From the NCBI RefSeq assembly GCF_002994745.2, contig NC_037090.1, forward strand, positions 14,558,001 through 14,622,000: a stretch of 64,000 nucleotides of DNA. The letters are read 5' to 3'. Positions 6,471 through 52,649 of this stretch are shown in pieces. Source of the stretch: Rosa chinensis (lineage: Eukaryota > Streptophyta > Magnoliopsida > Rosales > Rosaceae). The notes under the pieces were generated by a model, which saw nothing but the letters and a program-made list of their open reading frames with translations, did not search any database and was not told the DNA's origin. Position 1 is the stretch's first letter; each line of letters starts with the position of its first letter. Made by a program: the position numbers and the translations under genes.

Positions 6471-6574
6471 CTATTATTAGTTGGTCATGTATTAGATTTA
6501 TATTAAATAGTAGCTTGAATACGATAATAGCTACTTAACATACACTATGTGCACAAAAATTGACTTTCCTATAA

Positions 6575-6869
6575 GAGCAACTCCAACAGCTTCCCTATAA
6601 TTTTTGTATTATAGAGAAGCAAAAGTCAAACATTTAGCCTATTTTTCTTCTCCAACTCCAACAGATTCCCTAGTTTACAGCAATCTATAAAATCTCCATA
6701 TTCTTCTTTAAAATTTTGGAGTTTGCTGTAAATATAGGGAATTTGGTTTTCTCTCTCCTCACTTTCCCTAAAATAGAGATAATTATAGGGAATCTGTTGG
6801 AGCAAAAGAGGCTTATTTTTCCCTAAAGTAGAGAAAAATCAAATTATAGGGAAGCTGTTGGAGTTGCTC
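6575..6869. mobile_element. Tourist-like (PIF/Harbinger) MITE, 295 bp
   Basis: Terminal inverted repeats begin GAGCAACTCCAACAGCTTCC at the left and mirror it at the right (ending GGAGTTGCTC). They extend into an AT-rich TATAATTT/AAATTATA continuation. The element is flanked by TAA at 6572-6574 and 6870-6872, the 3-bp TWA-type duplication expected of Harbinger elements. An internal second copy of the CTCCAACAGATTCCCTA motif gives a nested hairpin. It has no coding capacity and would depend on a transposase elsewhere. Confidence 0.9.
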
Positions 6870-7112
6870 TAAATAAAAAAAGAAGACGGTGAAACTCTTT
6901 TCTCTTATACTTGCTCTAATCAAGCAAGATTTTCTATTGGACCACCTTAATCTATATGATAATAACTAAAAAAAATCAAAAAAGAAAAAGCAAAATAAAG
7001 AAGTGTTACTGTTTAAACAAGTTGAACACTTGAAAAATATGTCAGCATATACTTTCCACAAAGGACCAACTAGCTAGCATCTGAACAAGTTCAGATTGAA
7101 TCTCAAAGTTGT

Positions 7113-7935
7113 GTGTTATGTGTTGACAATGATGAAACAATACTACATTTGTGTAGAGACTATGCTTACTCGACGAAAGTCATTGTTTCCAATTTAATAT
7201 TGAGGCAGACTTGCTTTACCTCGGCAACATATGATATGACTGCTTTGGCTTGGCTTAACTACCACTCTACAAAGGTTAGATTTCTCAGTCTTAATTTTAT
7301 TGCTATGGAGTGCGTTGAAGGAGAGAAATTGTAGAGTTTGGGATGGAAAGACTACGAATGCTTGTGATGTGGTGTTAATGGCCACTTCCAGACTTAAGGA
7401 TTATACTTTTCATAACCTAAAGAGGGTGGAAGGTGCAAGGCAGAACCAAATATATAGTAACAGAATGGAGGTGCCCTCCGAGTGGATGTGTAAAAATAAA
7501 TGTGGATGGTGCATACAACTCGCAGATGAAAACAGAGGGCACCAGATTGGTGCTCAGGGATGCTTATGGACATTTGTTAACTGCAATTGGTGGACCACTC
7601 GTTGGTTTATTGTCAGCAAAGCACAACGAGCTATTTGCTTGTAAAAGTGCAGTCGAGTTTATCATAGAACAAGTTGTTTAGTCTGTGATTTTGAGACTGA
7701 TTCATTTGTTGTGCAACAATAATTAACCATTGCGGGGGATCCAACTATTCTTTGTTGTGACGTGTTTATGATGATTTAATGGTGCAATTGGCTGACTTGC
7801 CTACTGTACACATTACTCATGTAGTCATGTCAATAGAAAAGGCAACATGGTAGCGCATTTGGTGGCCGCTCAAGCTAGTACTTTAGGACAATCTTTGGCT
7901 TTCAATTCTATCGAATTTTGTATTTCTCAATAGCT
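7113..7935 (+). pseudogene. LINE 3' end: zinc-binding RT tail and RNase H-like domain
   Basis: Degenerate coding DNA, readable in two or three frames. First comes a zf-RVT-like stretch (DNDETILHLCRD, then LWSALKERNCRVWDGK at about 7300). Then comes an RNase H-like domain: GCVKINVDGAYN at about 7485, GTRLVLRDAYG, and AKHNELFACKSAVEF to about 7665. A C-terminal KGNMVAHLVAAQA block lies near 7840, beyond stops and frameshifts. AATAAA lies just downstream at about 7944. This order (reverse transcriptase tail then RNase H) is that of plant L1-type non-LTR elements. The RT itself is missing, as in a piece left after deletion. Confidence 0.8.
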
Positions 7936-8469
7936 TTACTTCAATAAAATGTTGACCTCATTCACCTCAAAATAAAATAAAATAAAGAGAGAAGTGTTAC
8001 TGTATAAAATAAATAGAAAAAAAAAGGGATGGTCTGTGGTCTAAATGAGTCCTAATATTATATTAAAGTTTATATTTTGGTTATTTCAGTTTGACTTTAT
8101 TTTATTAAATACTATAATTAGTTTACATCAGTGATGATTGGCTTTTATGTTGCAAGATCAGTAACTATTGGTTCATCTTTGAGAAATTGTGAGGAACAAG
8201 TGAACCTTAGCCATAAGTATTAAATTAGATTAAATACTTGTTACTCCCTGTACTTTGCTCCGAAAAACAGTTCAGTCCCTCACCTTTTAAATTAAACAAT
8301 TTAGTCCTTATTCTCTATAATTCTCACACAACAGGTCCCAGAGTGACCATTATACCCCTCACTTCCTTTTATATATATATATTTTTATTTTTCTCTTTTT
8401 TTATTTCAATTTTTCCTGCCTCTCCCCCCCCCCCCCCAAAAAAAAATCGTCTCTGACCTCGAGTTCATC

Positions 8470-8800
8470 CACATTAATGGCGACCCATTTTCTGGTCAGG
8501 GTTTAGGGTTGATCGGACCCCCACCTCTCTGACCTGAAATCTTTGATAGCAGAGCTCAAAAACAGTGACATAAAAGCAATTCGACGACTCCAAGCTTGGA
8601 GTCAAGGGCTTCGTCGACTCAGGTCTCTCCTCTATCCCCCGAATCTTTATCCACCCACTCGTAACATCACACCAATTCCAGCCCACAACCCGACCCAACG
8701 CCCAACCAATCCCTAACATCAACCTCTCCAACCTCCACTATGATCGCCGCTCCGCTGTTGTCGACCCATTTAATTTTAACCACCACAGAGTGTTAGATTT
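8470..8800. other. Unrecognised interior of MULE-1, left part
   Basis: GC-richer than the TIRs and compositionally like genic DNA. Frames on both strands are open for 60-85 codons. I could not assign them to a family. This may be a second captured piece, from the same or a different gene as the AP2/ERF fragment. Confidence 0.35.
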
Positions 8801-8824
8801 GAACAATTCAAGATCCAAGTAGGT

Positions 8825-9109
8825 TCAGCCAACACTGGACACAACAAACGACATCCCCGCCACTTCCTTGCTCTTCACGACGTCGTTTAGGACGCCGTTG
8901 TGGAGAAACTCAACTAGACGGCTGGAGTGGGAGGCCCACTGGGCAGAGGAGATGTTAAGGTTGAGGGAGAGATATCCTCTGGTCAACGGTGTCAGGAAGT
9001 TGGTCTTGGCCTTGTTGCCGCAGAGAGACTTGGCGGCACCGTCATAGGTGAGAGCTGCCTCCTCCGGCATGTCGAATGTGCCACACCTTCGTCTTCTTCC
9101 ACGGTCCAT
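8825..9109 (-). pseudogene. Captured AP2/ERF-domain fragment in MULE-1
   Basis: The open frame reads [20 protein letters not shown] followed closely by GNKAKTNF, the second half of an AP2/ERF DNA-binding domain (family pattern G-T-F/Y-D-T-x-E-E-A-A-x-A-Y-D-x-A-A then G-x-K-A-K-T/V-N-F). The first half of the domain, with the RGVRxRPWG block, is replaced by MDRGRRRRC, so the fragment cannot form a complete domain. The sequence after NF is not recognised. It starts close to the inner edge of the right TIR and is likely transcribable only from a TIR or a nearby promoter. Confidence 0.65.
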
Positions 9110-9983
9110 CCCATAGATTTGTTTTTCTTTCTTTGAATTGTACTAATTGAATTGAGAAATATGAATTAGGGGTTTTGTTTTTAGGGAGAGAGAGAGAGAG
9201 AGAGAGGTAGGAAAAATTGAAATAAAAAAGAGAAAAATAAAAATATATATAAAAAAAGGAAGTGAGGGGTATAATGGTCACTCTGAGACCTGTTGTGTGA
9301 GAATTAGAGAGAATAATGACTAAATTGTTTAATTTAAAAGGTGAGGAACTGAACTGTTTTTCGGAGCAAAGTATAGGGAGTAACAAGTATTTAGTCCTAT
9401 TAAATTCAAATGTTGAAATTAAAACAACTTAATACTAAATTTATTCTCAACTGTGAGATTCATTTGTCAATTACAGTTTCTAAAAATTGTTCTTTAGATA
9501 AGCAACTCTGTTGCTATTTATATGATCTTTGCACATTCTAGATTTATTACACAGTAACAAGGAACTTCAAGTTATTAGGTTGTGGCAGTATATGTATTTT
9601 TTCTAGTTTTGAAAGGGATTAAATATTGTTTACTCCATATACTAATAATGTTTCATCGTTTCAGTCCTCGACCTTTGAATTTCACCTAAAAAGTCTCTGA
9701 ACTCTCAATTTCCTCCCAATTCGTCCCTGCAGTCAATTTTCCGTCAATTTCTACATTAAGTTGCTGACGTGGCAGCCATTTTATGTCGAAATGTCTATTT
9801 TACCCACAGCTAAAAAAATTTCTGTTTTATTTTTATTTTTCTCTTTACTTCCTCTTCCATTCTCTCGCACTCTCTCACCTCCCAAACAACACCACCACCA
9901 CCACCTCTTCCTCCTCTTTCACCTCCCAAACACCACCTCTTCCTCCTCTCCTCTCTCACCTCCCAAACACCACCAAACACCAA

Positions 9984-10555
9984 TCAATCTTCTTCACCAT
10001 CATACTGAACCGATTGCTGGAACTCGGCATCCATCAGAACCCCATCCATAACATGCACAAGACTCCCCTTCCTCCGCAGATCAACTCTCTCCGATCGAAC
10101 CCCATTGACAACCAGCCTTCCATCTTCATCATTCGTTATGTATAGCACAAACCCCGATATCAAACCATACGGAACTCCTTCCCAAACGCCACCGTTTCGG
10201 AACCAATACTCCGCCGCACGGCTGAGAAGCCCAACACTCTAGAAACCATTGCATATGTATCATTCATCTTCTCCCCAACAAAACTATCAGTCGGGTCCAG
10301 TCTCAGGTCCCGCTTGAAAGCTTTCTCCGATGGGATAAAGACCGTGAAAGCTAGATCTTCCGGCAACATTTTGATCATCATCTCCCCAAACTTTCCGATC
10401 AGTAACTTGTTATCACTGTGGGAATGATAAGTGGTGGCTGTTGTGGTTGGATCTGGAAGACGTAGCATTGTGAGCGCGAGTATTACAAAGCTGCAAACCA
10501 ATACCAACCCCAATACGAACGCGATTGGATTCCTCAAAACCAGGCTTCTGCTCAT
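9984..10555 (-). pseudogene. Captured FAS1-domain membrane protein gene in MULE-2
   Basis: Start at 10555. Residues 10-32 form one hydrophobic segment (FVLGLVLVCSFVILALTML) suited to a signal anchor. A FAS1 domain follows, with IGKFGEMMIKML, LAFTVFIPSEKAF (the conserved TVFxPS/TxxAF block) and MVSRVLGFSAV. After about 10172 the frame shifts: the -1/+2 frame carries SGFVLYITNDEDGRLVVNG and VHVMDGVLMDAEF (the second FAS1 block) to a TGA at 9984. One indel therefore breaks what is otherwise a whole small protein of about 190 residues. FAS1 proteins act in adhesion and cell-wall or membrane contexts. Family identity rests on motifs only. Confidence 0.75.
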
Positions 10556-11030
10556 CGTCGTTGACGATCCAGTACGGTCACTTAGCTGACGGCGTGGACT
10601 TCGACAGGTGGAGGTGGAGAAAGCGTTTGATCTGGGTTGAAATGGAGTTGATGAGGTTGAGTCCAGGAGCTTCTAACTCCAAGAGAGACTGCGAGTTTAG
10701 AGCTGGTAAGTTTCATGGAATAGGGAACAACTACGATTCGGTCGCGGCGGAGCCTGACCGACTTGACCTCGGACCGGAACTGAGGCTATGGGAGGCCAAA
10801 CAAGGAAGCCGCCATTTGTTTTTGATCAGAGCAATGACGGGGGCTCTAGGGCTATGGTGGTGGAGGAGAGGATTCTTGGGTCTGGGTGGATTAAGATTGG
10901 GTCAGATTGATCGACCCCGATCAGACACATATACTGGATTCTTTATTGGCGGCGATGACAAGCACGAAGTGTGCTCGTTAGATGCAGATGACTTGGGTGG
11001 CTGGCTTAGCCATGGCAGATTGGGGTGATG
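10556..11030. other. Unrecognised GC-rich interior of MULE-2
   Basis: A + strand frame is open from 10525 to 11028 (167 codons), overlapping the 5' end of the FAS1 gene on the other strand. It is rich in Gly, Arg and Trp with no known motif, so it is probably a shadow of captured 5' flank or of a second captured fragment. No function is proposed. Confidence 0.3.
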
Positions 11031-11912
11031 GCGGAGATAAAAAGAAGAGGTAAAAAGAAAAAGAAAAAAAAAAGGAGAGAAAAGAAAAAAATAAATTAAA
11101 AAAGAGTAAATAAGGGTATAATAGACATTTTAGCTTGAAATTAATGCCACGTCAGCAAAGTAACGGGGTATTTGACTGAAAATTGACGGCAGGGACTAAT
11201 TGGGAGGAAATCGGGAGTTTAGGGACTTTTTAGGTGAAATTCGAACGTCAGGGACTGAAACGACGAAACCCTATAAGTATAGGGAGTAAACAGTAATTAA
11301 CTCTTTTGAAATGGTTTCATTTTTAGGTTTTTGGTAAGTCTAATCTCTTGAGCTACTTTTTTTTTTTTTTTTTGGGAAAAGTCTTGAACTAGGGTTTGGA
11401 GTCTTTATTTTGTGTCATTGTTATGTTGTATCATTAGAGGTTATTACCTTGTATTCTAGGTGTTTTCTTGTAGTTAGTGTGTTGGTGAGCTACTCTTACA
11501 CGTGGTTTGACTGTTTTAGGACACTATGGAGAATATAATAATGTTTTTCTTAATTTTGACTACAAGGATGTATCATGGCTCTCAAAATTAGTGGTTTGTT
11601 AGTAGTGCCTAAGAATTGCCAGTTATTATGGCTAGAGTTTCTGTGTTATTGGTTCATGATGATTGTAGCCATTAGTTTCACAGAGATATAAGTAGTTCCT
11701 CTCTTCCATTTGATGTTAATGAGAATATACCTAATTACTTATAGTGACATAGAGTGCTATTATATTACGCAACTTACACCCACTAAGTAGTAGATGTTAT
11801 GATATTTTGAAATCTCTTTTCTAACAACGCAAAGGACATAGGATAACTTATAATTTACTGATGAAAATTAGATTTCCAATTAAGAATAACAATGAATATA
11901 TAATTAACATAC

Positions 11913-13052
11913 CTTTGCCATTAATGGTACACCTCCGCACTTCTTAGCAATCTCTTTACCAGTTGTCTCCTGCTCTTTGGACAGAGGAGCACTCCCAACT
12001 GAAACTGCTTTATCCTTCATTATGAGCCAACATTCCACATCTGATAGTTTTCTTAAATCACACCTAGGAAGGGTCTCCATGACTTTTGCAACTTTGTCAC
12101 TACGGGTAGTGACAATGATGCTGCTTCCTTGAGTATCTTTAACAGTTAACAAACAACTTCTCAGCTCTTTCCATTTCTCAGGATCTTCGCTCCAAACATC
12201 ATCGAGCACTAAAAGGTATCTTTTCTTTTCCAGGTTTTCTCGAATGCATTTACAAATTGCATCCTTGCTATGAATTGTGGCTTTCTCTAGTTCTAGAGAT
12301 TCCACAATTCCCCTTAAAATCGTCTTGACTTCGAAAGGGGTGGATACACACACCCATATTTTTTCATGGAAGTGTCTATCAATGTCAGATTCATGATAGA
12401 TTAATTTAGCCAAAGTTGTCTTACCTAGACCTGGCATTCCCACAATAGCCAGAACCGGAAGATGATTTTCTTCATTATTGTCTGACTTGATCAAGGTTTT
12501 GACTATATCTGACACGACCTCCTCCCTTCCAATGATGAGCTTCTCATCGATATCAAAGCTGGAGACGGTTTCCCTATCAAGCACTTCAACATCTTGAGAG
12601 GTTGCATTAGATAATGTCCTAGCAACCAACCCAATTTGGCCAGCTGCCTCATTGTTCAAATTCACCAAAGATTTGTTGATCTTTTTAATTTGATGTGCCA
12701 TTTTAAAGCGAAATGCAATGGGATTGTTGTGTGAGAAGAAAATTTTCACCTTTTTCTTCCTCTGGTTAAGGAGTTCTACTTTGCGTCGGAGAACTTCATA
12801 CCCAATTTCATCCAAGACATCATCGGCTTCTTGAGCTATGTCTTCAAGATCCTTCACCCACAATTCCACAGCCTCCCCCCGAACTTGTGAATGGTCAACA
12901 TCTCTTAGCATAGCTTGTATCTTGAGGAACGAGTCACGGAGTTGGGCTAGATCTCCTTTGAAACCCAATACGAGAGTAAATTCTTGAGCAGCAAGCAAAG
13001 TCACCTTGGTCAGTATTCCCTCGGCAGCAAAAGTGAGCAGAAATTCTGCCAT
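11913..13052 (-). CDS. NLR exon 1: coiled coil and NB-ARC domain
   Basis: Starts with MAEFLLTFAAEGIL, the usual start of RGA-type CC-NLRs. Residues 1-130 form an Rx-type coiled coil with the EDVID-like block QEADDVLDE. The NB-ARC core follows: P-loop GMPGLGKTT at about residue 205, RNBS-A (KIWVCVSTPF), kinase-2 LLVLDDVW, RNBS-B SSIIVTTR, and GLPL-like CGGVPLMAK at the exon end. The donor AAG-GTATGT makes the join to 6470 in frame. The protein would bind ADP/ATP as a switch and trigger defence and cell death, probably through CC-driven oligomer formation. All nucleotide-binding motifs are intact; the only clear lesion is in the LRR exon. Closest named relatives are probably RGA2/RGA4-like proteins, but I give no gene symbol. 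Confidence 0.93.
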
Positions 13053-13776
13053 AGCTTTCAGAACTCACGGCAAATTAAGCAAAGAAAGGTTTAGGTAGTT
13101 GAGAAAACCAGAGGTTGATCACGAGATTGAAGACGCAGAGTCAAGCTGTACATATATTTTGAAGCCAATTATACACATACTAAAGCTGTTAGTGCAGTAC
13201 TGTTCATTGAAAATACGGTTTTACCCCCAACTTTTGACTGAAATTACAATCCTACTTTTTTTTTTTTTTTACAGTTCTGCCATATCCTTTCAGGTTTTTT
13301 ATTTTTATTTTTTTTTAATGGGAGAACAATTCTGTTTTTGTATTTGTAAATTTCTACAAATCATGAATTTTTTTTTTAAAAATCTCATTTGTTGCTAATC
13401 TATTATTAAAACAAAGCAAATCATATTTTAAATAGCGCTGATTTTTTTGAATTACGAGTATTTATCTATTACATATGAAATTTGAAAAAAAAAAACAGCA
13501 GCATTGATCGGGTCAATTTGCTAGTTCCTTATCTTGATTATGGATGTGAATTTCGCCACACGTCATACCATAAATGGCATAATATGCTATCTAAATTATG
13601 GATTTGATTTCTGTCGACCGAGTGCCCATGACTTTTCTTGACTTCTTCTTTGTCAAAAACGGAGGCCATGACTTTACCATTACCATGGCCTACACTACTG
13701 GTCTATTGTCATAACAGCTGACATTTGGCACGCCCCTCCAATCATAGTTAGAGAGCCCAATTAGAGCATGTCCACC
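13053..13776. other. NLR 5' flank, AT-rich, no gene
   Basis: Contains the putative promoter and leader of the minus-strand NLR. A TATA-like AATATATGTA sits near 13150 on the minus strand, but position and strength are uncertain. T-runs lie at 13257-13270 and 13299-13316. The part 13522-13702 resembles 30169-30300 (see repeat entries). Confidence 0.4.
13522..13702. repeat. Dispersed repeat, copy 1
   Basis: Blocks such as TGGATGTGAATTT, GCTATCTAAATTAT, GATTTGATT and ACCATTACCATG recur in the same order at 30169-30300. The copies differ by indels (for example an extra ~25 bp here). The unit has no visible terminal repeats. It may be part of an NLR upstream region copied elsewhere, or an unclassified repeat. 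Confidence 0.55.
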
Positions 13777-19340: not shown

Positions 19341-20373
19341 TGCCTTGACAAACCAAGCATCACCAAAACCCTGGCGGAAATTTTCAACATTAAGGTCAAT
19401 CCCAGCTGGATGGATGAAATCATAGAATACAAGCGCAACGACACACTGCCAACGGATAAGGTCGAGGCACGACAACTCAAGTGGAGGGCAGTCCACTACA
19501 ACATCTAGAACGACAAGCTGTACCGCCAAGGGTTCACCCACCCCAACCTTCGGTGTCTGACCCTAGAAAAGAGGAAGGTTGTTCTTACCATGATACACGC
19601 TAGGGAATGTGAAAACCATTCTGGCGCCAGATCACTGGCCAATCGCACAATGCGATAAGGCTACTTCTGGCCCACACTTGGAGATGACGCTCGGAAGATT
19701 TCCAGGTCTGGCTACAAGTGTCAACAATATGCTGATCTTCCCCACGCCCCGGCGGAACCCCTCTCCATCCTCATTGCTCTATGGATTCACTCCACGTGGT
19801 GCCTGGACCTACTTGGCAAATTCCCAACTGCCAAGGGCTAGTTCAAATACATCACTGTCGCCATCGACTATAACAGCAAATGGATAGAGGCGGAACCGCT
19901 GACGGTAATAACCACAGCCAAGGTAACTCGCTTCCTCTGGAAGAACATATACTACTGCTACGACGTCCCCCACACAATCATCACAGATAACGGCACGCAA
20001 TTCAACAACAAGGAACTCATATCTTTCACCGCCAACCTGGGCACCAAGATGAGCTTTGCGTCTGTCGCCCATCCCCAAAACCAATGGCCAAGTCGAAGCA
20101 GCAAACAAGATAATCAAGAAGCTGCTAAAAAAGAAACTCGACGACGCCAAGGGTTTATGGGCGGAAAAGCTCCCGGAAGTTCTGTGGCCCATCCGGACTA
20201 CCCCAACTTCCGCTAAAGGCGAAACACCATTATGTATGATGTTCGGAACAAAGGCCGTCCTACCAATCGAGGTCACCCAACCAACCGCCAGGGTCGAGGG
20301 CTACTGCTCCGAGACCAACGGCGAAGGCGTCAACCTTGACAAGGACCTCATTGAGGAAAAAAGCCACAAAGCC
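19341..20373 (+). pseudogene. Integrase of Tat element 1, part before CACTA-1
   Basis: The zinc-binding part has NHSGARSLANRTMR and GYKCQQYAD; element 2 has C-H-K-C here, so one metal ligand Cys is replaced by Gly. The catalytic core has AIDYNSKW, then ITDNGTQF and, after a frameshift near 20080, GQVEAANK (the D, D, E residues). Further stops lie at about 19337, 19507 and 19840. It is cut at 20373 by CACTA-1. Confidence 0.85.
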
Positions 20374-20389
20374 CACTACTACAAAAAGT

Positions 20390-20910
20390 TAATCACACAA
20401 CACCAATCACACAACGGAACAGAAATCATCTGTTGTGTGTTTAAGTAAAGTCTATTGTACAACGGTATTTGTGATGTTCTGTTGTGTGAATGTCAACAAA
20501 ATGATAACTTTTTTATCATAACTACATTGCACAACGGAATTAAGTATCTTCCGTTGTTTGAGTCTTAGAAAATTTAGCGGCAGTTTTCCCTCCACTCTGG
20601 AGTCTTGGTTGCCTCTTGAAATCTGAAATTTGGGCTACTAGACACAACGGTGCTTAAGATTTCCGTTGTGTGATTGAAAACTAGGCGCCAAATTTTGCGG
20701 AAGCTTACTTGAATGTCGCAATCTGTCGCAATCTGTAGAAATTAGACAACAGATTTAAGCTATTCTGTTGTGTGAAGAAGGAACATAAGCGGCAACATTT
20801 TGAGCCAAAATGTTGTAGGCGGCATGTTTCCCTCCATATTTCCAAATTTTGATTTTATGTAGTGCACTCATACAACGGATGGTGAGCTTTCTGTTGTGGG
20901 AGTGACTTTG
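20390..20910. repeat. Left subterminal repeats of CACTA-1
   Basis: Paired motifs such as CACAACGG...CCGTTGTGTG recur at about 20397-20445, 20455-20485, 20525-20560, 20640-20675, 20745-20780 and 20870-20905. Each pair can fold into a small hairpin. Spacing is irregular. Confidence 0.8.
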
Positions 20911-21175
20911 AGAATTTTTTTAAGTTTAATTGTCATGCCACATCGTGTCTAAAAGAAAGAAGCAAAACAAAATCTCTCAAACCCTCTCGACCCTCTCGAC
21001 CCTTTCTCTCGACACACACACTGTCAACCCTCAGAATAGCCTCTCGACCTAAATTATCTTCGTAACTGTTCCTCATATTCACCAACTCCACCCCCAATTC
21101 TCTGCAGCTCTCCTTTGATCTACTCTTATCCTTGAAACCCTAGCTATTTCACTTATTAGGTCTCGCTCTTCATCT

Positions 21176-22041
21176 TTGATTGAAATTGATCTCGTTGGTT
21201 GGACGACATCAACGAGAGAAAAAGAGAGAGAAGTCATGAACACGATGCAGTACACGGAGGGTGAGCACCACCGGCACCACCGCAGTCGAGGCATCGGCAT
21301 CCTCCACTCCAACACCGCCAAGGTCAGATCCATCAAGGCCCGCAGCGTCCCCCTCCTCTCCGCCCCCGTCTTCATGTCCCCCGGAGACCGCATCCACAAC
21401 GATGACGTTTTCGACTACGACGTCAATCCCTACGTCCTCGTCACCTGGTCTGGCGCCCCCAGCTCCAAGATTTTGGGCTACATGGCGAGCCGCGATTGGG
21501 TGAAGCTGGCGGACAAGGAGGTCAAGATTTACGATTACATGATCAGCTGTAAGGACATGGTTTTTCCTTGGAGCTCCGATTTGGGGAAGATTGAGGAGTT
21601 CATGGCGGAGAAAGTCCGTGACGTGGCAGCAATGGTGAGGGACGACGAGGTTGTCGATGTTGTGGAGAAGGAGGACGTGGAGCGGATCAAGGGGTACCCG
21701 AAGTTGGGGGTAGGGTCGGTTGGCCCGACGGGTCGTGGAAGGTCGGGGCGGCGATAAGGATGAGGGAGTCGGATAAGGAGAGATTAGAGGAGTTGGTGAA
21801 GGCTGGGATTGATGTGGTGGTGTTGGATAGCTCACAGGGGAACTCCATTTATCAGATTGAGTTGATCAAGTACATCAAGAAAATGTACTCAGATTTGGAT
21901 GTGGTTTGTGGGAATGTGTTGACTGTGAGTCAGGCGCAGAATTTGATTCAGGCTGGTGTTGATGGGTTGAGGGTTGGGATGGGGTCTGGCTCCATTTGTA
22001 CTACTCAAGAGGTTTGGGTCGGCGGCAGGGGACAGGTATAA
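21176..22041 (+). pseudogene. Captured IMP dehydrogenase fragment in CACTA-1
   Basis: Inosine-5'-monophosphate dehydrogenase makes XMP in guanine nucleotide synthesis. Readable blocks: PYVLVTWSGAPSSKILGY and DWVKLADKEVKIYDYM (CBS-domain side), [49 protein letters not shown], and the catalytic-Cys loop [13 protein letters not shown]. One missing G near 21727-21728 shifts the frame after VGSVGP; it stops at 21755 and resumes at about 21760. The fragment ends RGQ followed by GTATAA, which looks like a splice donor, so intron sequence was probably captured too. The N-terminal part is shortened. It cannot encode a complete enzyme. Confidence 0.88.
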
Positions 22042-22899
22042 AGATGCATTCTTTTTGTTCAAGTATTGGTTTTGAGATGTGTAGAGTTTGATTAGACTGT
22101 TCAGATTATTAGTGGATGAACATTGGACTGAGGACTTGTCGAATTGATGGCATTTTCGCTCATTGGTGCTTGCTTTACTCTCTTGCTATGATATTAATGC
22201 CAGCAAAGAATCTAAACAATAATTTTTGGTGGTATGGTTGAAGAGTAAACTTTGAATCTTTTCTCTACTTTTTCTTGTATACAAGATTAGTCTTTTTATC
22301 GTACAGCTGCTGAATATGTCTACTCTTAAGTATGAACCAAAAGGTAAGGAATATGCTCTGCCTCTACCTTGAGAAAGTTGAATGCATTTTTGTTTTCCTA
22401 AAGATGGCTGAGGTACTTATATCAGCTCGTATTTCCTTTTGGCTTATATGTTCGATCTTATTATTAGATTAGCTATCTTAATTTGATATACAGTTTCATA
22501 ACCATGTCGTATGAAATTTGGTATAATTATTTTTCTTGTCTTGGCTCATTTTGGCTTTTCAAGTTTAGCTGTTTGTTTGCTTTTCGGTTTCATCTTGCTC
22601 TGTTTGTTTGCAAGTTGATATTCTTCTTAACTAGTTATGAAGCAGAATGCAATTTGTATACTAGTTTCATTAGCTATGTTGCAATTTGTGAAATAGAATA
22701 TAGTTTGTTTATCAATTCATGTACTGGAATTTTCATTGTTCACTGGCCAAAGTCTAATTTGTCACTTAATCTTTCCTCTTTTTGTACAGGCTATATATAG
22801 TGATTATGTAGTGAGGTTTACTTTCTTATTAGACGCAATGACAACACCATTGTTGTAGACTTTTAAGCTTAGAAAGGCAAAAATTTCTGTTGTAAGTCT

Positions 22900-23770
22900 T
22901 CTCTGTTGAGCTTGCAACCGACCGTCATGGCTGTTGTGTGCTTCAAAAATGTCTTAGTCATTCTGATGGTGAGCAAAGAGACCGATTGATCTGCAAGATC
23001 ACTTCCAATGCACTAATCCTTTCCCAAGATCCATTTGGGTACTCTTCTTTGCCCTTTTCTTTTCACCGTACATCCTTGATATCATGTGTTTTTTAATCAT
23101 ATACTATAGATGGTAATGCCTTATGTTTGATTGATAATGAGCCCGTGTTACACTGTTGATTATCAGTTCGTATTTGCAAATGAGCATCCGAACTCTCTAT
23201 TTGGAATTCAAGTTTGAACTAATAATTCTGAACTTTGGAATGTCATTTTTCATTTTGCAGGAACTATGTCGTGCAATTCGTCTTTGAGCTTCAGCTTCCG
23301 TGGGCGACAGTAGACATTCTTGAGCAGTTGGAGGGTAATTATGGGGATTTGTCTGTGGAGAAGTATAGCAGTAATGTGGTTGAAAAAAGCCTGAAATACG
23401 CAGGTGAAGAGCGCCGTGCTCGCATTATTCAGGAACTGATAGGGAATATGCGATTGGACCAAATCATGCAAGACCCTTATGGCAATTATGTTATCCAAGC
23501 AGCACTCAGTCAATCAAAGGTCAGTAAATGCATTACAAGTCTATGTTATTTGTATTTGTTACACTGCAGTTGTTATATCTCAGATTTGTGAGTGCATAGA
23601 ACATGTTTAATTGCAAGCTTCTTGTGTTAAAATAATGAGTTGTTGTATGGTGTTATGAGCAGGGAACACTTCATTCTAAACTGGTAGAAGCAATAAAACC
23701 TCATATGCCAGTTCTCCGGACCAGTCCCTATGGGAAGAAAATCCTCTCTACCAATATTTTGATGAAATAA
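22900..23770 (+). pseudogene. Captured Pumilio-repeat gene fragment, three exons
   Basis: Exon 1 ends at 23038 (RHGCCVLQKCL, DRLICKITSNAL, SQDPFG then GT). Exon 2 is 23261-23519 (NYVVQFVFEL, GNYGDLSVEKYSSNVVEK, DPYGNYVIQAAL). Exon 3 is 23663-23770 (GTLHSKLVEAIKPHMPVL, SPYGKKIL, then stop). All joins use GT-AG and keep frame. The exons cover about four C-terminal Pumilio repeats, each with the S/N-x-x-x-E type RNA-contact pattern. Pumilio proteins bind 3' UTRs and repress translation. The retained introns show capture from genomic DNA. Whether it is expressed from CACTA-1 is unknown. Confidence 0.88.
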
Positions 23771-24507
23771 TCTCTTTTATTGGTATGACCACAATATCTT
23801 CTCCCTTGACTTATTTCTGAGCTTTCTTGGCAACCCAGCTGATGCTTTTCTTTCTGCCAATGTAGGTTTAATTGTTCAAGAGAATTCGATTGCATTTTAA
23901 TCCTTGAGAGTGAAATTTCAGATTGCATTTTCAACAATGTTGCTATGGATGAGCGGTTTAAGGAGGAAAGTGAATATTGTAAGTGTCATTTCCACTTACA
24001 GTTAGCATATGAACCAGTTATGACTTCAGTAGCTTTTAAGTTTCAACTATAGCAGTTGTTTCAATTAAGTCTGAACAATTTTGATCAAGACACATCAATG
24101 TGAGATGTACGCATGTAGGAAAGGGTTTGGATGAGCATGTCCAAATTGATTTGATAGTAAACTAATTATTGTAGAGTTAGAATCAGTTACAATTGAATCT
24201 TTTGATACAGAAGCAGTATTAGATCTCTATTGGGAATTGCATTGTGCTCATTGTACCCTTGTTCTTTATTTGGTATGGTAGAATCACAAAGATATTTCAA
24301 TCTTTCAGGTTTTTCTTTTGGGACACCATATGATTGAGTAGAGATATTACTGTGTTTTTATCCGCCTTAGTTTTAGTCAGTTGTTTCCAATTTAATTCAT
24401 GTAATCATTACATCTTGTGTTTTATCTGTTCAAAGATACTATCATTTTTGCTTGCATTTTTTTTCTTCCAAACTGCTAGTATTTCATGGTTTGATAGATT
24501 TGAATTG

Positions 24508-24600
24508 TTGCAGCGGCCATTTTATGAGCGGTGGAAGATGCTTGAGAAAGAGGTCATAGAGCCTCGGAGTTACAAGTTTGTTGTCAAGTATATAATGTTC
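24508..24600 (+). pseudogene. Possible mRNA-capping enzyme fragment in CACTA-1
   Basis: A short run PFYERWKMLEKEVIEPR (about 24517-24567) resembles the linker before the nucleotidyltransferase core of plant mRNA-capping enzyme, followed by unrelated residues. The match rests on one motif recalled from memory, so it could belong to another protein. Confidence 0.4.
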
Positions 24601-24811
24601 GGATTCATTAACATTATATACTTGATGAGCATAGAACCTGTCACTCAGCAAACGAAGGATGTAATCTTCTGTCATTCTTGTAATAACAGTTATGCTATGA
24701 GCTAACGCTGCTACTAATTCTAGATGTTACTCTTGATGAGTTATTTTTTATGCTAAAGGATTTCGTAAGTCGTTAGGACTTAGAACTGTATTTATAGTGT
24801 TTTCTTGTTCC

Positions 24812-24985
24812 TTTGTGGGAGGTCATGGTGGCAGTGATGGATTGCATGGCTATGTTCCTTCACTTGACCATGTTGTTGCTGATACTGTAAGTTCAATAGG
24901 GGGATTTCTTGGAAAAGATTAGATTACAGAACCCTGGAGCACCGTGCTTCCTCTTTGGTCACTCAACTGGAGGAGCTGTGGTTTT
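24812..24985 (+). pseudogene. Captured monoacylglycerol lipase-like fragment in CACTA-1
   Basis: Reads GGHGGSDGLHGYVPSLDHVV, then after a short in-frame stretch or reduced intron FLGK, and in the next readable block NPGAPCFLFGHSTGGAVVLK. GHSTG is the nucleophile elbow of the alpha/beta hydrolase fold. This pattern is that of plant monoacylglycerol lipase / caffeoylshikimate esterase-like enzymes. Only about 55 residues remain, with a stop just after FLGKD, so the piece is inactive. Confidence 0.8.
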
Positions 24986-25254
24986 AAAGCAATGTGCTGC
25001 ATGTGTAGTACTAATATATTATATATATATATATATATATTAATCTTTTTGTTAAGATCTGATGAACAAGAGATTTCTTTTTGGTATTGATAAGTACCTG
25101 TTAAACTTTTTGCGGCAAAGTTATATTTTGCTACATAAATAGGTGGGAGATTTGATTCAAGGGGGCACTGCTTTGAAAAGGATACATATTGAAAGCATGA
25201 TTGAGGCTTTACTAGATGTTTAATTACGTTACTATAAATGTTGTATCGGTACAA

Positions 25255-25690
25255 AGTTCACTGGTCAGTTCGGAGATTTAATTGCTGTAAGTACTATTTC
25301 CAGATAAATGTTTATCGATTTCCAAGTATAAAGGTCTTTTCCTGTAGGAAGATGAAAGTTATGTTAAGCTGATGTGATTGATTTGCTTCTTTTTTTGTGT
25401 ACTCAGGATTTAGCCCTTGATGCCACTAGAATAGTTGGAGTGGACCTCGGCTAGGGTTTACGAGAAGTGGATATTAAAAAGTACATCAAGGTTGAGAAGG
25501 TTCCTGGTGGCCATTTGGAAGATTCAGTGGTTCTGAAAGGAGTAATGATTAACAAAGATGTCATTGCTCCTGGAAAAATGAGAAGAAAGATTGTCAATCC
25601 GCGGATCATGCTTCTTGATTGTCCTCTTGAGTATAAGAAAGGCGAGAACCAAACAAATGCTGAAGCAAAAGAGCTCATCTATTGAAGGTA
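25255..25690 (+). pseudogene. Captured chaperonin CCT-gamma (TCP-1 gamma) fragment
   Basis: A first small exon reads TKFTGQFGDLIA before GTAAGT at about 25287. The next exon, after a CTCAG acceptor near 25406, reads DLALDATRIVGVDLG, a stop in place of Gln, GLREVDIKKYIKVEKVPGG, then VVLKGVMINKDVIAPGKM, KIVNPRIMLLDCPLEYKKGE and NQTNAE. This is the apical-domain border of the CCT3/gamma subunit of the cytosolic folding chamber. Sequence is well preserved apart from the TAG at about 25453 and loss of frame after NQTNAEAKEL. Confidence 0.88.
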
Positions 25691-25934
25691 TAGAAAAGGT
25701 AAAGCTCTTTCCTCACCCCAAAGTCTTGTATATTTGTATAAGTGAATCAAAATTCTGGAAATTGGTAATCTAAACACTAGGGAAATTGGTAATCTGAACA
25801 CTGGAAATTGGTACTTCAACTTCACTGCACATTCAAATGTAAGTATGTTCTTTCATTTATATTGATAGAACTGTAAGTTTGGATTTGGAAGTATTGATTT
25901 TCATTATCAAGCTTGAAACTTTAGTGGTATATCC

Positions 25935-26123
25935 TCATGTGGTCTGGTGACAGAAATGACCTGTACAGTTTGTTGTTTGCAAGTAAGAGAGCTGAAATAA
26001 GCGAAAGGCTACCCTGCATTGAGAATGAGTGCTCGACCCATCACTTAAAGATCTTGCAGGAGAGTTGGAAGGAGCCATCAAATTGGTTGAACGAAAGCAT
26101 TTTGTTAAGTTATGCTGATACAT
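25935..26123 (+). other. Unidentified possibly captured fragment in CACTA-1
   Basis: Open on both strands for about 60-85 codons. The third + frame reads KDLAGELEGAIKLVERKHF, which looks like an amphipathic helix of a real protein. I could not place it in a family. It lies between the CCT fragment and the right subterminal repeats. Confidence 0.3.
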
Positions 26124-26399
26124 ATATTCACATGCAGCAACTGCATATGTGCATGTTTTATATTGTATCAGCTTTTGCTCTTTTTAATTGTTAGCTAGAA
26201 TGCAGCAGCCATCAAGCTAGCTAGAATGCTTTCTTTTTTTGTTACATGGTATAGATGAATGTATGGATGATTGATAAATACTAGCTCTTTTGGTACATGC
26301 TTGAATTAGAGTACTTCAGTACTTAATATATAGAGCATTATTTTTGTGCAAATATTCCAGCTAAATAATCGATAATGAACGAACAATAGTAAATTAAAT

Positions 26400-26990
26400 T
26401 ACGTTGTATGAATACGCATGTCGTCAATCACACAACAAACCACTTATAATCACACAATAGTATCTATAAAATTATGTCGTCACATTAGTACTCACACAAC
26501 AGAATAAATGGGTATCAGTTGTCCAATGTTAAATCACACAACGGTATAGAAACAATGTGTTGTATGACTTGTGAAGAATTCAACACTGAGCCTCACACAT
26601 ACAACAGTTACTTATGATACCTGTTGTGTGAAGGAACAACCAACAACAGTCGCCATATATTTCTGTTGTATGATAAGTTAACCAACAACAGCGTGTACTT
26701 ACTTCTGTTGTCTGAGTGTTATTTTTCTGTTGTGTGAGAAGTTAACCAACAACAGCATGTGCTTACTTCTGTTGTCTGATCACCATCGAAAATGCGCCGC
26801 ATCCAATTTTTGGCATTGGCATGCGCAGAATTGGTGCAACGGTTATAAGCAATGCGTTGTGTCTATGATATTCAGATAACGGTGTTTCACCGTTGCGTGA
26901 GTGTGCTCATCACACAACATCGAGATAGACGACAGACATGGTCCACATCACACAACAGATTTCCACCGTTGTGTGATGCAGTTTTTGTAG
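26400..26990. repeat. Right subterminal repeats of CACTA-1
   Basis: At least ten motifs of the form CACACAACAG / CTGTTGTGTG, several paired as hairpins (for example around 26600-26640, 26660-26700 and 26715-26780). The 26690-26785 part contains a near-exact local duplication, AACCAACAACAGC(G/A)TGT. Same motif class as the left end. Confidence 0.8.
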
Positions 26991-26998
26991 TAGTGGCC

Positions 26999-30571: not shown

Positions 30572-35228
<4,657 letters not shown>

Positions 35229-36658: not shown

Positions 36659-37174
36659 TGTTAATGTCTAAAAGTCTGGCGGTAGCTGGACCTTAGTTAA
36701 CGCTGATCCGGTGGGCGGATCGGTACTTGTGTTGTTCTCGAAGCTCCCGCTACCTGTCAAATAAAATACAATGGGCGTCAGAGGGAGACCGCGCCGGGCG
36801 GTCTTCAACTCTCCGATGCCTAAGTTAGTCGATGTATTTACGTTGACAAAGTAACAGTAGGTAAGTATTGAATGCGTAATTAATGAGGAGAGAGGAGAGA
36901 ACCTTTTATAGGTGAGTAAGAGGTTGATCTTCTCTTAGTTTTCGATGTGGGACTGACATGCTTCAGTTCCCAGTTTCAGAACCTTCTGATGCCATCTTGG
37001 AGTGGGGCGTGGCGGCGCGTCGGCGGCGATCTGGAGGTGGTCCGACTCCGAGGTTGTAGCCCGCCTGGCGGTGTGTCTGCATGTCATTCCTTTGGCTGGA
37101 ATTGGTACCTTTGGCGGTACAATGAGCATGGCCCATTATAGCTAATTATGCTTGCAAATGTACATGCATGTACA
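36659..37174 (-). repeat. 3' LTR of Tat element 2
   Basis: On + it reads TGTTAATGTC...CATGTACA, so on the element strand it starts TGTACATG and ends TTAACA. 516 bp. Bordered internally by a purine-rich tract (on the minus strand GGGGACTTGGGGGACT). Confidence 0.93.
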
Positions 37175-37719
37175 AGTCCCCCAAGTCCCCAGTCAAGGAG
37201 GGCAATCTTGGTTGGGGAGTTGTTCGGCGGTTTGAAGCGTTTTCCTCCGCTAGACTTGCAAGAGCATAATTAGGGTCAGTGCGTTGTCAACCGTTGGTTT
37301 TACTGAGCAAACGCTTTATACCCTTTCGGGTGGGCCCCTGCTAGGCCCCCCAGGGAGTCCCCCACTCCCCGGCGAAGATAGACCTTCGGATGGTCCGTAA
37401 ATTGTTTGTTGAGGAGGATCTGCACGGAGCAGAGGGTGTTGGGTAGCGAGCCCAATGTTTAGCACCCAAATGACGGGGGTCAACGTGCTTGATCAGGGCC
37501 GTCGTAGACTGTTGACCAGTCCCCGTGTCCCGTAGGGACAGTCTGACGGTAACGCCGCGTGGCGATCGTTGTCAGAGTGAGGTGTGACCTCGGGATTTCG
37601 GCGTTTGGCGGATATCCCCCCGCTGGATGCAGCAGGAAGCAGCGTCAGGTAGACATGGCTGGCGGTATTTTGCTGAACGATATTGCGTTTGAACAAAGCA
37701 TGCCGTTTGCAAGATGAAA

Positions 37720-38340
37720 ATGGGGTTCCGCCAGAGGTGTATAGCGGAAGAAACCCCGCTTGCAGGATAGTGAGGGAAAGGTTCTGCTGGAGGGGTTTAG
37801 CTCAGCGGAGACTCCGTCACTTGGAGGGTGCCAAGGGAGAAGTTCCACTGGTGGGGTTTCGCTCAGCAGAGACTTCGTCCTTGGAGGGTGCCAAGGGAGA
37901 AGTTCCGCTGGCGGGGTTTCGCTCAGCGGAGACTTCGTCCTTGGGGGGTGCCAAGGGAGAAGTTCCGGGTTTCGCTCAGCAGAGACTTCGTCCTTGGAGG
38001 GTGCCAAGGGAGAAGTTCCGCTGGCGGGGTTTCGCTCAGCGGAGACTTCGTCACTTGGAGGGTGCCAAGGGAGAAGTTCCGCTGGCGGGGTTTCGCTTAG
38101 TGCAGACTTCGTCCTTGGAGGGTGCCAAGGGAGAAGTTCCGCTGGCGGGGTTTCGCTCAGTGGAGACTTCGTCACTTGGAGGGTGCCAAGGGAGAAGTTC
38201 CGCTGGCGGGGTTTCGCTCAGCGGAGACTAAGCACTTGGAGGGTGCCAAGGGAGAAGTTTCGCTCGCGGGGTTTCACTCAGCGGAGACTTCGTCACTTGG
38301 AGGGTGCCAAGGGAGAAGTTCCGCTGGCGGGGTTTACGTT
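37720..38340. repeat. 60-bp tandem array in 3' region of Tat element 2
   Basis: Nine copies of GGGTGCCAAGGGAGAAG occur between about 37825 and 38310, spaced 60-61 bp apart; one unit is shortened by about 8 bp. Each unit also holds GGGGTTTCGCTCAGCGGAGA. Units are highly alike, so recent unequal exchange is likely. Long open frames here are products of the repeat, not genes. Tat/Ogre elements are known for variable tandem repeats between their genes and the 3' LTR, which can seed satellites. Confidence 0.92.
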
Positions 38341-38592
38341 ATCTCAGTGGTTACTTCCGTCAGACGCTTCGTCTGGTGGTGGCTGACACGTGTCCAACCC
38401 GCAGGGGGTTAGCGTGCGGAGGCTTGTCCCCTAAACCTGGCCGTCTTCTCGCCATAAATGACAGTAATTATGGATTTCGTAACCGAAGCAACGCCTCGGT
38501 TAATCTGGGTAGTAAGTGGAGGTCTGTGACACGTGTACGGCTGTCGTGTGATGTCGTTTTTTAGCGGACGGCGGAGAGCGCGTTGATGTTGA

Positions 38593-38600
38593 CATAAAAG
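38593..38600 (+). promoter_or_regulatory. TATA-like box of the antisense gene
   Basis: CATAAAAG followed by a G-run and, about 30-40 bp on, a leader-like CTTCACATCCACAATCG. It is placed so that transcription would run into the antisense gene, opposite to gag-pol. Core promoter only; no distal sites identified. Confidence 0.45.
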
Positions 38601-39117
38601 GGGGGGAACCCAGCTAGATTCGACACTTTGGTAAAATCTTCACATCCACAATCGTATTCTCCTCGCTCTGCCTGTCCGAGACTGAAGAAAGAAGTTGCCG
38701 GAGCTTTGAGATACCGTTCCCGGAAAAACGACTACCGCACCCCTCTAAAATTTCTATTCACCATCGTATCGTAGGCTTCACCACCGAGGTTGGTATCTGG
38801 ATTCTATTTTTCCTGTTTCATTGGATCTGCTATTTTCTGGGTTTTGTTATTCTTGCCTTTCTGGGATGATTTCTGTTTTTCTTTGGCGTGTCCTGAGGTG
38901 TAGAATGATATATTGGGGGGGGGGGGGGGGTCTGGATTATGGTGTTTGGCAAGGAGTTAGTGTTTTGGGATTTGTTAGATAGTTGAATCTGGGTTGAGTG
39001 TGCTTGTTCGTATTTTGGCATTTTATGGGTTTTGTTCTTGATGCCTTTGCCTATGACTGATGTAAGAGTAGGCTAGATATGTGTTGGTGCTAACTGGTGT
39101 GGGTTTTAGGGTTTGGG

Positions 39118-41762
39118 ATGGCTAATGTTATAGAGATTTCGAGCAGTGAGGATTCCGGGTTTGACGTGTCGATCAGCGCGGCGGATAGTATTTTTATTGA
39201 TTCGTTGCGTCCGTCTGCCCATGTAGGAACCTCACTGCCAGAACCGCTACAGACCATCCCCTGGGAAGTAGCTATGGGTCGGGGTTCGCGTCCAGAGAGC
39301 TCTAGGGCGGGTGAGGCCGCTGCTGCCAAAGCTAGGCGCGATGAGCGTTTAGCGAGCAATAGTGCTGCTAGCGGCTCCGCTGGGGAAGAAGAAGCAGCGG
39401 GGCAGAATGCTGAGTCGGCGTGGTTCCTCTCGGATGGCACCTTCGTCGACGAGGCAGGAGGGCGGATGAACGCCGCCGCTATTAACCGAATGAAGCAGAC
39501 GTTCCGGTTGCCGGGCTCGGTGAAGCTGCGCCCGCCGACAGCGGATGAGAAGGCTTCGATTCTCCCGGCGGGATTTGCTGCCGTTCATGGGGCGATATTC
39601 CGCCAAGGAGTGACACTCCCGCTGGTGCCAAATCTCCAAATCCTGGTGTCAGATTTTCCCCAACATGTGGCGGTTGATGTTGGCCATGAACTCACTTTGG
39701 CGGTTGTCCGGGTGCGAGGGGCCTACTGTGGCGGAAGTGCTTCACTTCTACGAGTTGGTGTACGTGAAGCGCCGAAGTTGCAGAGGGCAAGTGAACTTGA
39801 GCCGCCGGCAGGGAGCGCCCAAGCTGATCGAGAATTTAAGGGACTCAATGTCCTACTGGCGGGGACCTTCTGCGTCGCCACAGAGGGTTGGGAGTATCAT
39901 GCCAGGTCGAACGAGGGAGGGCCGACATTTAGGATCAAGTCGGAGTTCCAACCCATTCGAGGTTGGTAACCGGTTTCCGCTGAACGTAGTTGGCAGGTTT
40001 ACGCATTTGCACTTGTACTCTCACTAACGATTACTGTTTTTATGCAGCGGGACTGCGGTACACGCTAACGCGCGAAGAAGAGTGTCTTATAGCGAGGATC
40101 AGAGGTTGCTGGCGGAACCGTAACTTGCTGGATTTCCGACTTCTGACTGGTTGGGAGTTGCTGGTCGACCAGTGGCTAATGCGCTCCATTGGTGAGAAAT
40201 CTCCGCCATGTTTTTTTTTTTTTTAGCAAGCGATCCGGACTGATTGGTGGTTGTTGTTTTTTTTTTTTTTAGAAACTCCGCCGGGCAACAAATCGAGTCG
40301 CGACGCTTTTGAAAAAGCAATGGACCGCGCGGAGATAGACAACTTTCTGGAGGCCATGTACCCCGAGGGGCTGGCGGCCCAGCAGACGCTGGTGAACCCC
40401 GAGACGCTGGCCCTGAGCCAGTCCGAGGTTCCGGTGGTGCTGCCAATGCCGCACCAGTCCCATCTCGGTGAGGATGGTCTGCCGGTGGTGCAGGAGGGGA
40501 CTCAAGCTGCCGGCGGGGAAAGGGGAAGAGCTACAGCTGGGCAGCAGAAGGAGCGGATGCCTGGCCACAGGCGTGGCCCTCAAAAGAGTGTCACTGTGCT
40601 AAGGGAGGAACCGCCGGTGAGGGTGACGAGGACCACTGCTGGGAGTCAACGGGCGTTGGAGAGAAAACGCCGGCAGGATGATTCTCCCACTGAGGAAGAG
40701 AGAGAGGAGGTGGAGGTGATCGGGGCCCGCCGACAGAAGAAGGCCCGACGAGCTCCTTCGAAAACAGTTGCGGTGGAGGGAGAGGCGCCCGCCGTTAGTG
40801 AGCTGGACTCGTTTGCCGAGTATGCGGCGTTCATGACAGATGGTGAGCGGGAGTTCCTGTTCCATCTATGCGAACAGCTGGGGTTCGGAGGTCTGGCGGG
40901 TATCTCGCGCCCCACGGCAATTGACCAATCGCCCTTCAGCTCGGCGTTTGGTCAAATATCGGCGGGACTGCATGATATGTTCATGGCGGCGTCGAAGCAG
41001 CCCCTGATTGAGGGGGAACTCAGGGAGGAAATTCAAGGTCTCCAGAGGGAGTTGGTGGAGGCGAAGGAGAAACTGGCGGAGGCAGAGCGGCGGCTGGCCA
41101 AGGCGGAATGTGACTACGCGGACGTCCGCGGTAAGCTCAACGTGGCCATCACGAGGGACTTGGAGAGGAATGAATGCGTCTCCAAGTTGGAGCAGGAGAT
41201 CGCCCTGCTACAGGAGCGGGTAGCCTCCAAGGATAAAAAGCTTATTATTGTGCAGCGGGAGTCCGCCGCCAGAATGACGAAGTGAAGAGGCTGGAGGGTG
41301 AGGTTACCCGCCTGAGGGATGAAGAGAATACCGCTGCGGCCGCCGCTGTTGAGGCGTTCAAGCAGTCGGCGGAGTTTAAGAAGGCGATGACCGAGTCGGC
41401 GAAGGCCGGGGCCCAAGCAAACATAGATATGCTGAAGAAGAAGGGCGCCATCGACTTCGCCAAAGCGTCCCAGCCTGCCGTGCCGCCGGCTGAGAGTATC
41501 CGGCCGGAGACAGAAGTGCCTGCCCCCACTGGAGGTGCCCACTCAGGCAGCGGAGAAAGTGGCGCACATCCGGCAGAAGGGTCCCAGCAAACTCCCCTCG
41601 CTACCCCATCGGAGGTGTCACGTGCTGGATTTCTGGCGGCGCACACCCGGGCGGATGGCACTATAGAGACCCCTAGCCCGACAGCGCGAGGGTCTGATCA
41701 AGCGAGTCGATCGATTGTGCCGCCGCCTGCTGAAGCTGAAGATGTCGAAGGCCACCCCTGAA
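39118..41762 (+). CDS. Spliced antisense gene of Tat element 2
   Basis: Opposite to gag-pol. Exon A is 39118-39961, starting MANVIEISSSEDSGF. Exon B is 40048-40191 (TLTREEECLIARIRG). Exon C starts at 40273 (ETPPGNKSSRDAFEKAM). Introns of 86 and 81 bp have GT-AG ends, and both joins keep frame. A 5' UTR intron ending GGTTTTAG at 39109 is likely. Exon A carries a gypsy-type transposon domain (FRQGVTLPLVPNLQILV; in a neighbouring frame EVLHFYELVYVKRR), so one pair of compensating indels is possible. Exon C has a proline/charged linker and then a long coiled coil (about 41010-41270). A one-base shift near 41270 moves the frame to KRLEGEVTRLRDEE, ending at 41760. AATAAA lies at 41853. Such extra antisense ORFs are known in Tat elements; their role is unknown. 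Confidence 0.75.
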
Positions 41763-41852
41763 GGCAGCTGGGATCGCCAGAGATTTTCCTACTCTTCTTT
41801 TTTTTTGTAGCCGCTGAGGCATAATCAGTTTGTAATGAACGTTGCGAAATGA

Positions 41853-41858
41853 AATAAA
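41853..41858 (+). terminator. Poly(A) signal of the antisense gene
   Basis: AATAAA about 90 bp after the stop codon region, within GAAATGAAATAAAGTTTT. Suitable position for 3' end formation on the + strand. Confidence 0.55.
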
Positions 41859-42179
41859 GTTTTAAATTGGCTTGCTACGATGTGTTTGTAGTGCTAGTAC
41901 TTTGAGTTATATTTTTTCTTTTGTCTATCAATGAAACATTAAAGGAATTAAGATTGGTCCAAGTGCACCACGTAGCGGACGAGGTCCGCTGACGATTGCT
42001 GGCGTTGCCAGTTGCCCTCAGTGCTAGACTTGGTGACAATGGTTAGAATAATTCCTCGTTTCATTGATAGCTGATTGATCAGTGTACAAAAGTGGGGTAG
42101 TACCCGTTGGGTAGCTTCCCTTAGCTAAATATTGAACAAAAATTTAGCTAAGTCAAGATGCTCGTGGGTAGCGGTCTGA

Positions 42180-43067: not shown

Positions 43068-43079
43068 CACTACAAAAAA

Positions 43080-43620
43080 GTCGTTTTTTTGCGACGTTAA
43101 GAACACGTCGTAAAAGAGTCCAAAAGTGTCGCAAAAGGTTATTTGCGACGGGGAAAGAAACGTCGTTAAAAAGCGCGTCGCAAATAATCCAGCACTTTTT
43201 GCGACATGTAACTCGCGTCGCTAATAAGTATTTGCGACGGTTGACTCTACGTCGGTAAAAAACTCGTCGAATTTACTTTTTTTTTTGCGACACCTTTTTG
43301 CTACGCGATTGTCTGTCGCAAAATACATATGCGACATGTTTTTGGCACGCTACGGTGCATCACAAAAGATATTTGCTACGGTCTTTTGCTACGTGAAAGT
43401 CTGTCGCAAAAGATATTTGCGACGCTTTTTTGCCACACGAAGATCTGTCGCAAAAAAACTTTTTGCGACGCCATATAAATGTCGTTAAAAATCTAATTTT
43501 TGGCGACGACTTTTTGTCACGAATGTTTTCATGTTGCAAATAGTTTAGGCGATACTTATTACCGACAAATATAAATGTCGTAAATAGTCTTTGCGACACT
43601 GGTTATTATAATTTTCCCGT
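43080..43620. repeat. Left subterminal repeats of CACTA-2
   Basis: At least 15 copies of TTTGCGAC(G/A) or TCGCAAA, in both directions, often spaced 25-35 bp apart, with CGTCG(C/T) variants. These are presumed transposase-binding sites. Open frames across this stretch are rich in RRSVAK-like repeats and are not genes. Confidence 0.88.
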
Positions 43621-52622: not shown

Positions 52623-52649
52623 GGTGATTGTAGTGGGATGGCCTTTTGT

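Follow-up and report, generated by a model that had tools for sequence, protein, structure and literature searches.

A putative Pack-CACTA element with pieces of at least five host genes inserted in a gypsy retrotransposon of Rosa chinensis

The stretch analyzed in this study, referred to below as the window, comprises 64,000 nucleotides of the Rosa chinensis genome (assembly GCF_002994745.2, contig NC_037090.1, positions 14,558,001 to 14,622,000 of the forward strand), and all coordinates are positions within it. A CACTA transposon of 6622 bp lies on the + strand at 20374..26995, as delimited by its ends, its flanks and an empty site, and contains fragments of five gene families. These are, in order along the element, IMP dehydrogenase (IMPDH), Pumilio, mRNA capping enzyme, monoacylglycerol lipase and the chaperonin CCT-gamma, and all of them are on the + strand. 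The carriage of host coding DNA is a trait of Pack-CACTA elements. We consider it highly probable that this is a non-autonomous Pack-CACTA element of Rosa or a near relative, with fragments from five or more unrelated genes of the host.

Boundaries and insertion site of the element

The ends of the element were located by an end-sequence search. The 14-bp sequence CACTACTACAAAAA was found exactly at 20374..20387 on the + strand and at 26982..26995 on the - strand, and nowhere else in the window with up to one mismatch (0.01 matches expected by chance). The inverted repeat extends to 28 bp, with 25 of the 28 bases identical. The element thus has the short terminal inverted repeats beginning with CACTA that characterize the superfamily, and it also has the 3-bp target site duplication, GCC being present at 20371..20373 and again at 26996..26998. 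The 28-bp end pattern had no match in the viral and prokaryote collections viral_contigs and genome_contigs.

The element is inserted in a gypsy retrotransposon, whose reverse transcriptase (2.6e-26) was recognized upstream of it. The integrase core lies to the left of the element (rve, 1.9e-10), and a weak match to the integrase C-terminal part, under the cut-off, lies to the right (SH3_11, 0.0005), which places the insertion point between these two parts. In the window, no pair of long terminal repeats was seen by which this gypsy element could be dated. The empty site, with a single GCC, is represented by another gypsy copy of the - strand near 42.4 kb. The flanks of the CACTA element, joined with one GCC, aligned to this copy over 798 bp (86% identity) with no gap at the junction, and therefore both ends derive from one insertion. 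Two different elements as the source of the two ends, a possibility that an earlier note on this DNA had raised against its own description, were ruled out by the empty site, and a single CACTA element with exact ends and a GCC duplication was confirmed as that note had described it.

A gypsy element on the - strand at 36659-53191 contains a reverse transcriptase (4.6e-34) and two 516-bp direct repeats that are 96.9% identical and resemble long terminal repeats; long open frames of the + strand are present between these repeats at 39-41 kb. A tandem array of about 60-bp units with roughly 90% identity occupies 37773-38335, where both strands carry long open frames.

Inside the terminal repeats, copies of the motif ACAAC-N-GTTGT were found in the left (20388..20930, six units) and right (26395..26981, eight matches, two of them overlapping) subterminal regions. 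Counted with the ends, the 557 bp of the left side contained 6 copies, the 601 bp of the right side 8 and the 5464-bp interior 1, while three control stretches of the window, 52,302 bp in total and excluding a second CACTA element (30572-35228) that holds four matches of its own, contained none; resampling of the control gave a mean of 1.1. Subterminal repeats in direct and inverted orientation are a further trait of the superfamily. The subterminal arrays are real, and the single inner unit (22841-22856, between the IMPDH and Pumilio fragments) is not significant, since resampling of the interior equalled it 49 times in 500. The inverted repeat and the subterminal units, both retained by the element, are the ends that a CACTA transposase is believed to need, and the element would be moved by a transposase made elsewhere. 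Its own open frames, 30 of which were scanned (three scans of ten; some short frames were not included), gave no match to a transposase Pfam model, which is also characteristic of Pack-CACTA elements and agrees with the earlier description.

The second CACTA element measures 4657 bp, is flanked by TAA on both sides and lies 3.6 kb from the first. Its right end is 87% identical over 30 bp to the left end of the first element, and 43-bp units in an array, together with a 129-bp tandem repeat, are found on its left side. Ten of its frames were scanned, and no Pfam match below E 0.025 was obtained.

Gene fragments in the interior

The IMPDH fragment (21290..22035) corresponds to model positions of about 57-313 of 450 and was identified by Pfam (7.4e-35) and by the NCBIfam model TIGR01302 (first half 6.6e-12, second half 1.2e-43); the best PDB match of the first half was IMPDH 2 (6.6e-6). 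The two halves are in different frames because of a frameshift near 21730, and the first frame runs into a stop at 21757. The first long ATG frame begins at 21236 and is the longest among the ATGs at 20901-21760, with 173 codons up to that same stop. The stretch upstream of the homology (20931..21289) is unassigned and, judged by eye, appears 5'-UTR-like. The fragment ends with GGACAG|GTATAA, and the GT at 22036 may be a native splice donor.

The Pumilio fragment has three exon pieces at 22905..23038, 23261..23519 and 23663..23770 separated by GT-AG introns of 222 bp (23039..23260) and 143 bp (23520..23662). The last exon encodes the C-terminus, and its stop coincides with the end of the Rosa sericea protein. 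Pfam PF00806 recognized two pieces (3.7e-17 and 6.1e-14), and the reading frame is clean. A protein search whose query included the Pumilio, IMPDH and CCT pieces returned 4462 matches, the best 120 of which were all Pumilio, with Rosa sericea as the first match; the Pumilio-12 type was assigned from the names of the matches and refines the three-exon Pumilio piece reported earlier. Identity was 161/165 to R. sericea, 156/165 to both Fragaria x ananassa and Argentina anserina, 150/165 to Prunus yedoensis and 113/159 to Arabidopsis lyrata. Frameshift-tolerant alignment against the Rosa protein scored 423, compared with at most 43 for six shuffled sequences and 40 for the reverse strand, and revealed no Pumilio homology 5' of 22905. 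No Pumilio relative was found in a search of viral contigs.

The capping enzyme piece, RPFYERWKMLEKEVIEPR, lies at 24514..24567, directly after TTGCAG, and its reading frame is clean. Its protein search was weak (33 bits, E 0.02), yet the capping domain PF01331 was present in all 120 listed of the 129 matches. Against the Rosa chinensis enzyme 21 residues were aligned, the first 18 identical and the last three not, and other plants outscored Rosa chinensis in the search. Frameshift-tolerant alignment against the Rosa protein scored 112 (six shuffles gave at most 48, the reverse strand 49). The Pfam score of 0.0016, under the cut-off, is insufficient by itself because an antisense frame of the element reached 1.7e-4 for another family; the assignment, which we regard as weak, relies on the protein search and on the residues identical to the Rosa enzyme. 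A perfect 16-bp inverted repeat with a 10-nt loop (24584..24625) begins 17 nt past the point where the capping homology breaks off, and none as long occurred in 100 resamples. The query that produced the 129 matches also included 25925-26194 and 26029-26115, and all 120 listed matches carry the capping domain; an extra gene at either place was rejected, nothing below chance having been found in Pfam or PDB, and these stretches stay unassigned. Antisense Pfam matches to DUF3519 (1.7e-4), MJ1010-like (0.0077) and EF1G (0.018) were likewise regarded as chance.

Two exon pieces of a monoacylglycerol lipase (24821..24886 and 24900..24989) are separated by the 13 nt GTAAGTTCAATAG (24887..24899), and skipping these 13 nt restores the frame and gives an unbroken protein match, which suggests that they are the remnant of a nearly deleted lipase intron. 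The Pfam score (0.0017) was under the cut-off, and the identification comes from the protein search (110 bits, 1.1e-26 among 5.8 billion proteins; first match Rosa rugosa) and from the alignment to the Rosa protein (237, with a maximum of 41 in six shuffles and 39 on the reverse strand). Identity was 51/52 to R. rugosa, 50/52 to Rubus and Fragaria and 48/52 to Malus.

The main CCT-gamma exon piece (25407..25659) matched TIGR02344, the gamma family, with 5.4e-35 versus 6.9e-11 for the next family, and a PDB entry with 2e-25; it contains an in-frame TAG at 25452-25454. It is preceded by a GT-AG intron of 120 bp (25287..25406) and by a 48-bp piece (25239..25286), too short for a search of its own, which by its position is taken to be the preceding CCT-gamma exon. 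The 39 bp that follow (25660..25698), joined out of frame and themselves followed by GT, read LKQKSSSIEGIEK in another frame, which resembles a later CCT-gamma exon and may be the end of one; a PDB search of this stretch was negative, and it is kept as an unconfirmed lead.

Taken together, the profile and protein matches confirm the several unrelated gene pieces (IMPDH, Pumilio, lipase and CCT-gamma) named in the earlier note, and its count of four or five genes, with capping enzyme as a possibility, is corrected to at least five, capping enzyme being included though weak. The shared orientation that it had described holds for five of five pieces, which would occur by chance once in 16 cases and is weak evidence when taken alone. 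The fragments were captured from genomic DNA, as had been proposed, since canonical introns lie between the exon pairs of Pumilio (two GT-AG introns) and also of CCT-gamma (one). That IMPDH, CCT-gamma and lipase are frame-broken goes beyond the earlier description. By residue counts, the Pumilio and lipase fragments are closer to Rosa than to the relatives of Rosa, and for three of the five genes a full-length protein is known from Rosa. Three of the fragments, namely Pumilio, lipase and capping enzyme, point to Rosa or a near relative as the probable host. The non-exon remainder of the element consists of introns, subterminal DNA and stretches without gene assignment.

Origin and assembly of the element

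According to the explanation that we favor, genomic DNA, with introns, of no fewer than five unrelated host genes would have been gathered into the interior of a CACTA element, and the element was inserted as one unit into the gypsy retrotransposon, with duplication of GCC. The pieces are passenger gene fragments, mostly frame-broken, which might be spliced together if transcribed. Several points weigh against this explanation. The comparison with Rosa proteins covered three of the five genes, Pumilio, lipase and capping enzyme; assigned exon amounts to 1797 of 6622 bp, including the 39 bp of the possible later CCT-gamma exon and 48 bp assigned by position; the capping piece spans 18 residues only; weak Pfam scores are unreliable alone, as the antisense match to DUF3519 illustrates; and the 64-kb window contains one copy of the element, so that its movement as a family would be a presumption. 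That the fragments are an ordinary gene cluster, or an artefact of assembly, lying between two unrelated CACTA ends is contradicted by the empty site with one GCC and by the fact that the matched pieces are mere parts of much larger proteins, and we give it a negligible chance.

Two routes could have gathered the pieces within a Pack-CACTA element, namely the fusion of neighboring CACTA insertions that lost their inner ends, and error-prone break repair that copied other loci. In the former, to which we would give somewhat less than an even chance, small elements with or beside gene pieces merged, the outer ends continuing in use and the inner ones being lost. CACTA insertions do cluster here, a related second element being only 3.6 kb away, and a fusion model is described for Pack-TYPE elements (PMC8903248). 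The unit at 22841-22856 lies inside the element and would fit this route, but it is not significant. Overlapping windows with at least four 9-mers common to the subterminal DNA are somewhat commoner inside the element (29 of 179) than in the control (156 of 1733), but the top window inside contains eight such 9-mers and the top control window 11. The closest internal end-like match has three mismatches in 14. Relics of inner CACTA ends were not significant by end-like matches, 9-mer windows or resampling. In the latter route, which also falls just short of an even chance in our estimate, a break inside the element was filled by template switching with stretches of other genes. The perfect fold-back close to the capping break (0 of 100 resamples) is in its favor, as are the 13-nt lipase intron remnant and, where CTGAA is shared, the possible CCT join, both of which resemble repair deletions. 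However, such fold-backs are not specific, as one of 19 bp occurs outside the element at 1779-1820, the CCT join depends on an unconfirmed motif, and all junctions are tentative.

A further reading is that the fragments act together as one working chimeric gene, with transcription starting in the 5' region of IMPDH and splicing joining the pieces. The five pieces on one strand and the canonical splice signals at several borders would fit, and the soybean element Tgm-Express1 behaves so at the RNA level (PMC1947982). The IMPDH frame stop at 21757, the CCT TAG and the lipase stub speak against it, as do the stop carried by Pumilio itself and the location of the element in a retrotransposon and not in a gene intron, and we regard it as very unlikely. 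The suggestion in the earlier note that one transcript could join exons of different genes is accordingly retained in part: chimeric RNA from the element is possible, while the case for new chimeric products is weakened, and a chimeric protein led by IMPDH is improbable. Early stops would probably be present in a read-through RNA because of the IMPDH frameshift, the CCT TAG and the 13 extra nucleotides of lipase.

Related elements and significance

Comparable gene-shuffling elements have already been described in soybean, maize and Arabidopsis. The closest parallel is Tgm-Express1 from the soybean wp allele, reported in 2007, a CACTA element of similar size (5.7 kb) in which five unrelated host genes are represented by exon and intron pieces and which gives chimeric spliced RNAs (PMC1947982). 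Tgm-Express1 resides in an intron of an expressed gene, where the spliced chimeric RNAs arise and from which they were cloned, whereas the rose element is located in a retrotransposon, carries other genes and is known from DNA alone; since exon joining is already published for Tgm-Express1, it is no new prediction here. The Pack-CACTA and Pack-TYPE elements of PMC8903248 are likewise elements with terminal inverted repeats, without transposase and with coding DNA from several loci; the rose element differs in its rosaceous host and in being a single copy in the window. CACTA elements of Chenopodium share the subterminal repeats and host gene fragments, but the examples considered from PMC8978399 have transposase-related domains and single-gene fragments (Neprosin, AP2), in contrast to the rose element with at least five genes and no transposase found. 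In the open-access literature, judged by titles and the beginnings of abstracts, the end sequence CACTACTACAAAAA was not found, nor was anything on the rose element.

Elsewhere in the window, - strand frames at 3662-13064 belong to a disease resistance gene of the NBS-LRR class, with NB-ARC (1.4e-41) at 11907-13064 and leucine-rich repeats (8.5e-55) at 3897-6470. The perfect inverted repeat at 1779-1820 has a 4-nt loop between its 19-bp arms, and at 60374-60709 units measuring about 34 bp are arrayed in tandem, the copies being up to 92% identical.

The element is a multi-gene Pack-CACTA, a kind already known, and the understanding of such elements is unchanged by it. What it contributes is an example from the rose family whose empty-site control lies within the same 64 kb. 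The near identity of the Pumilio, lipase and capping pieces to proteins of living roses should make the parents and other copies findable, and the order of capture and the formation of the junctions could then be directly readable. That the element is transcribed, as a single RNA or a small-RNA source that matches five housekeeping genes at once (purine synthesis, mRNA capping, Pumilio, lipase and chaperonin), is scarcely probable in our estimate; if true, a number of essential rose genes could be modulated in trans by a single transposon.

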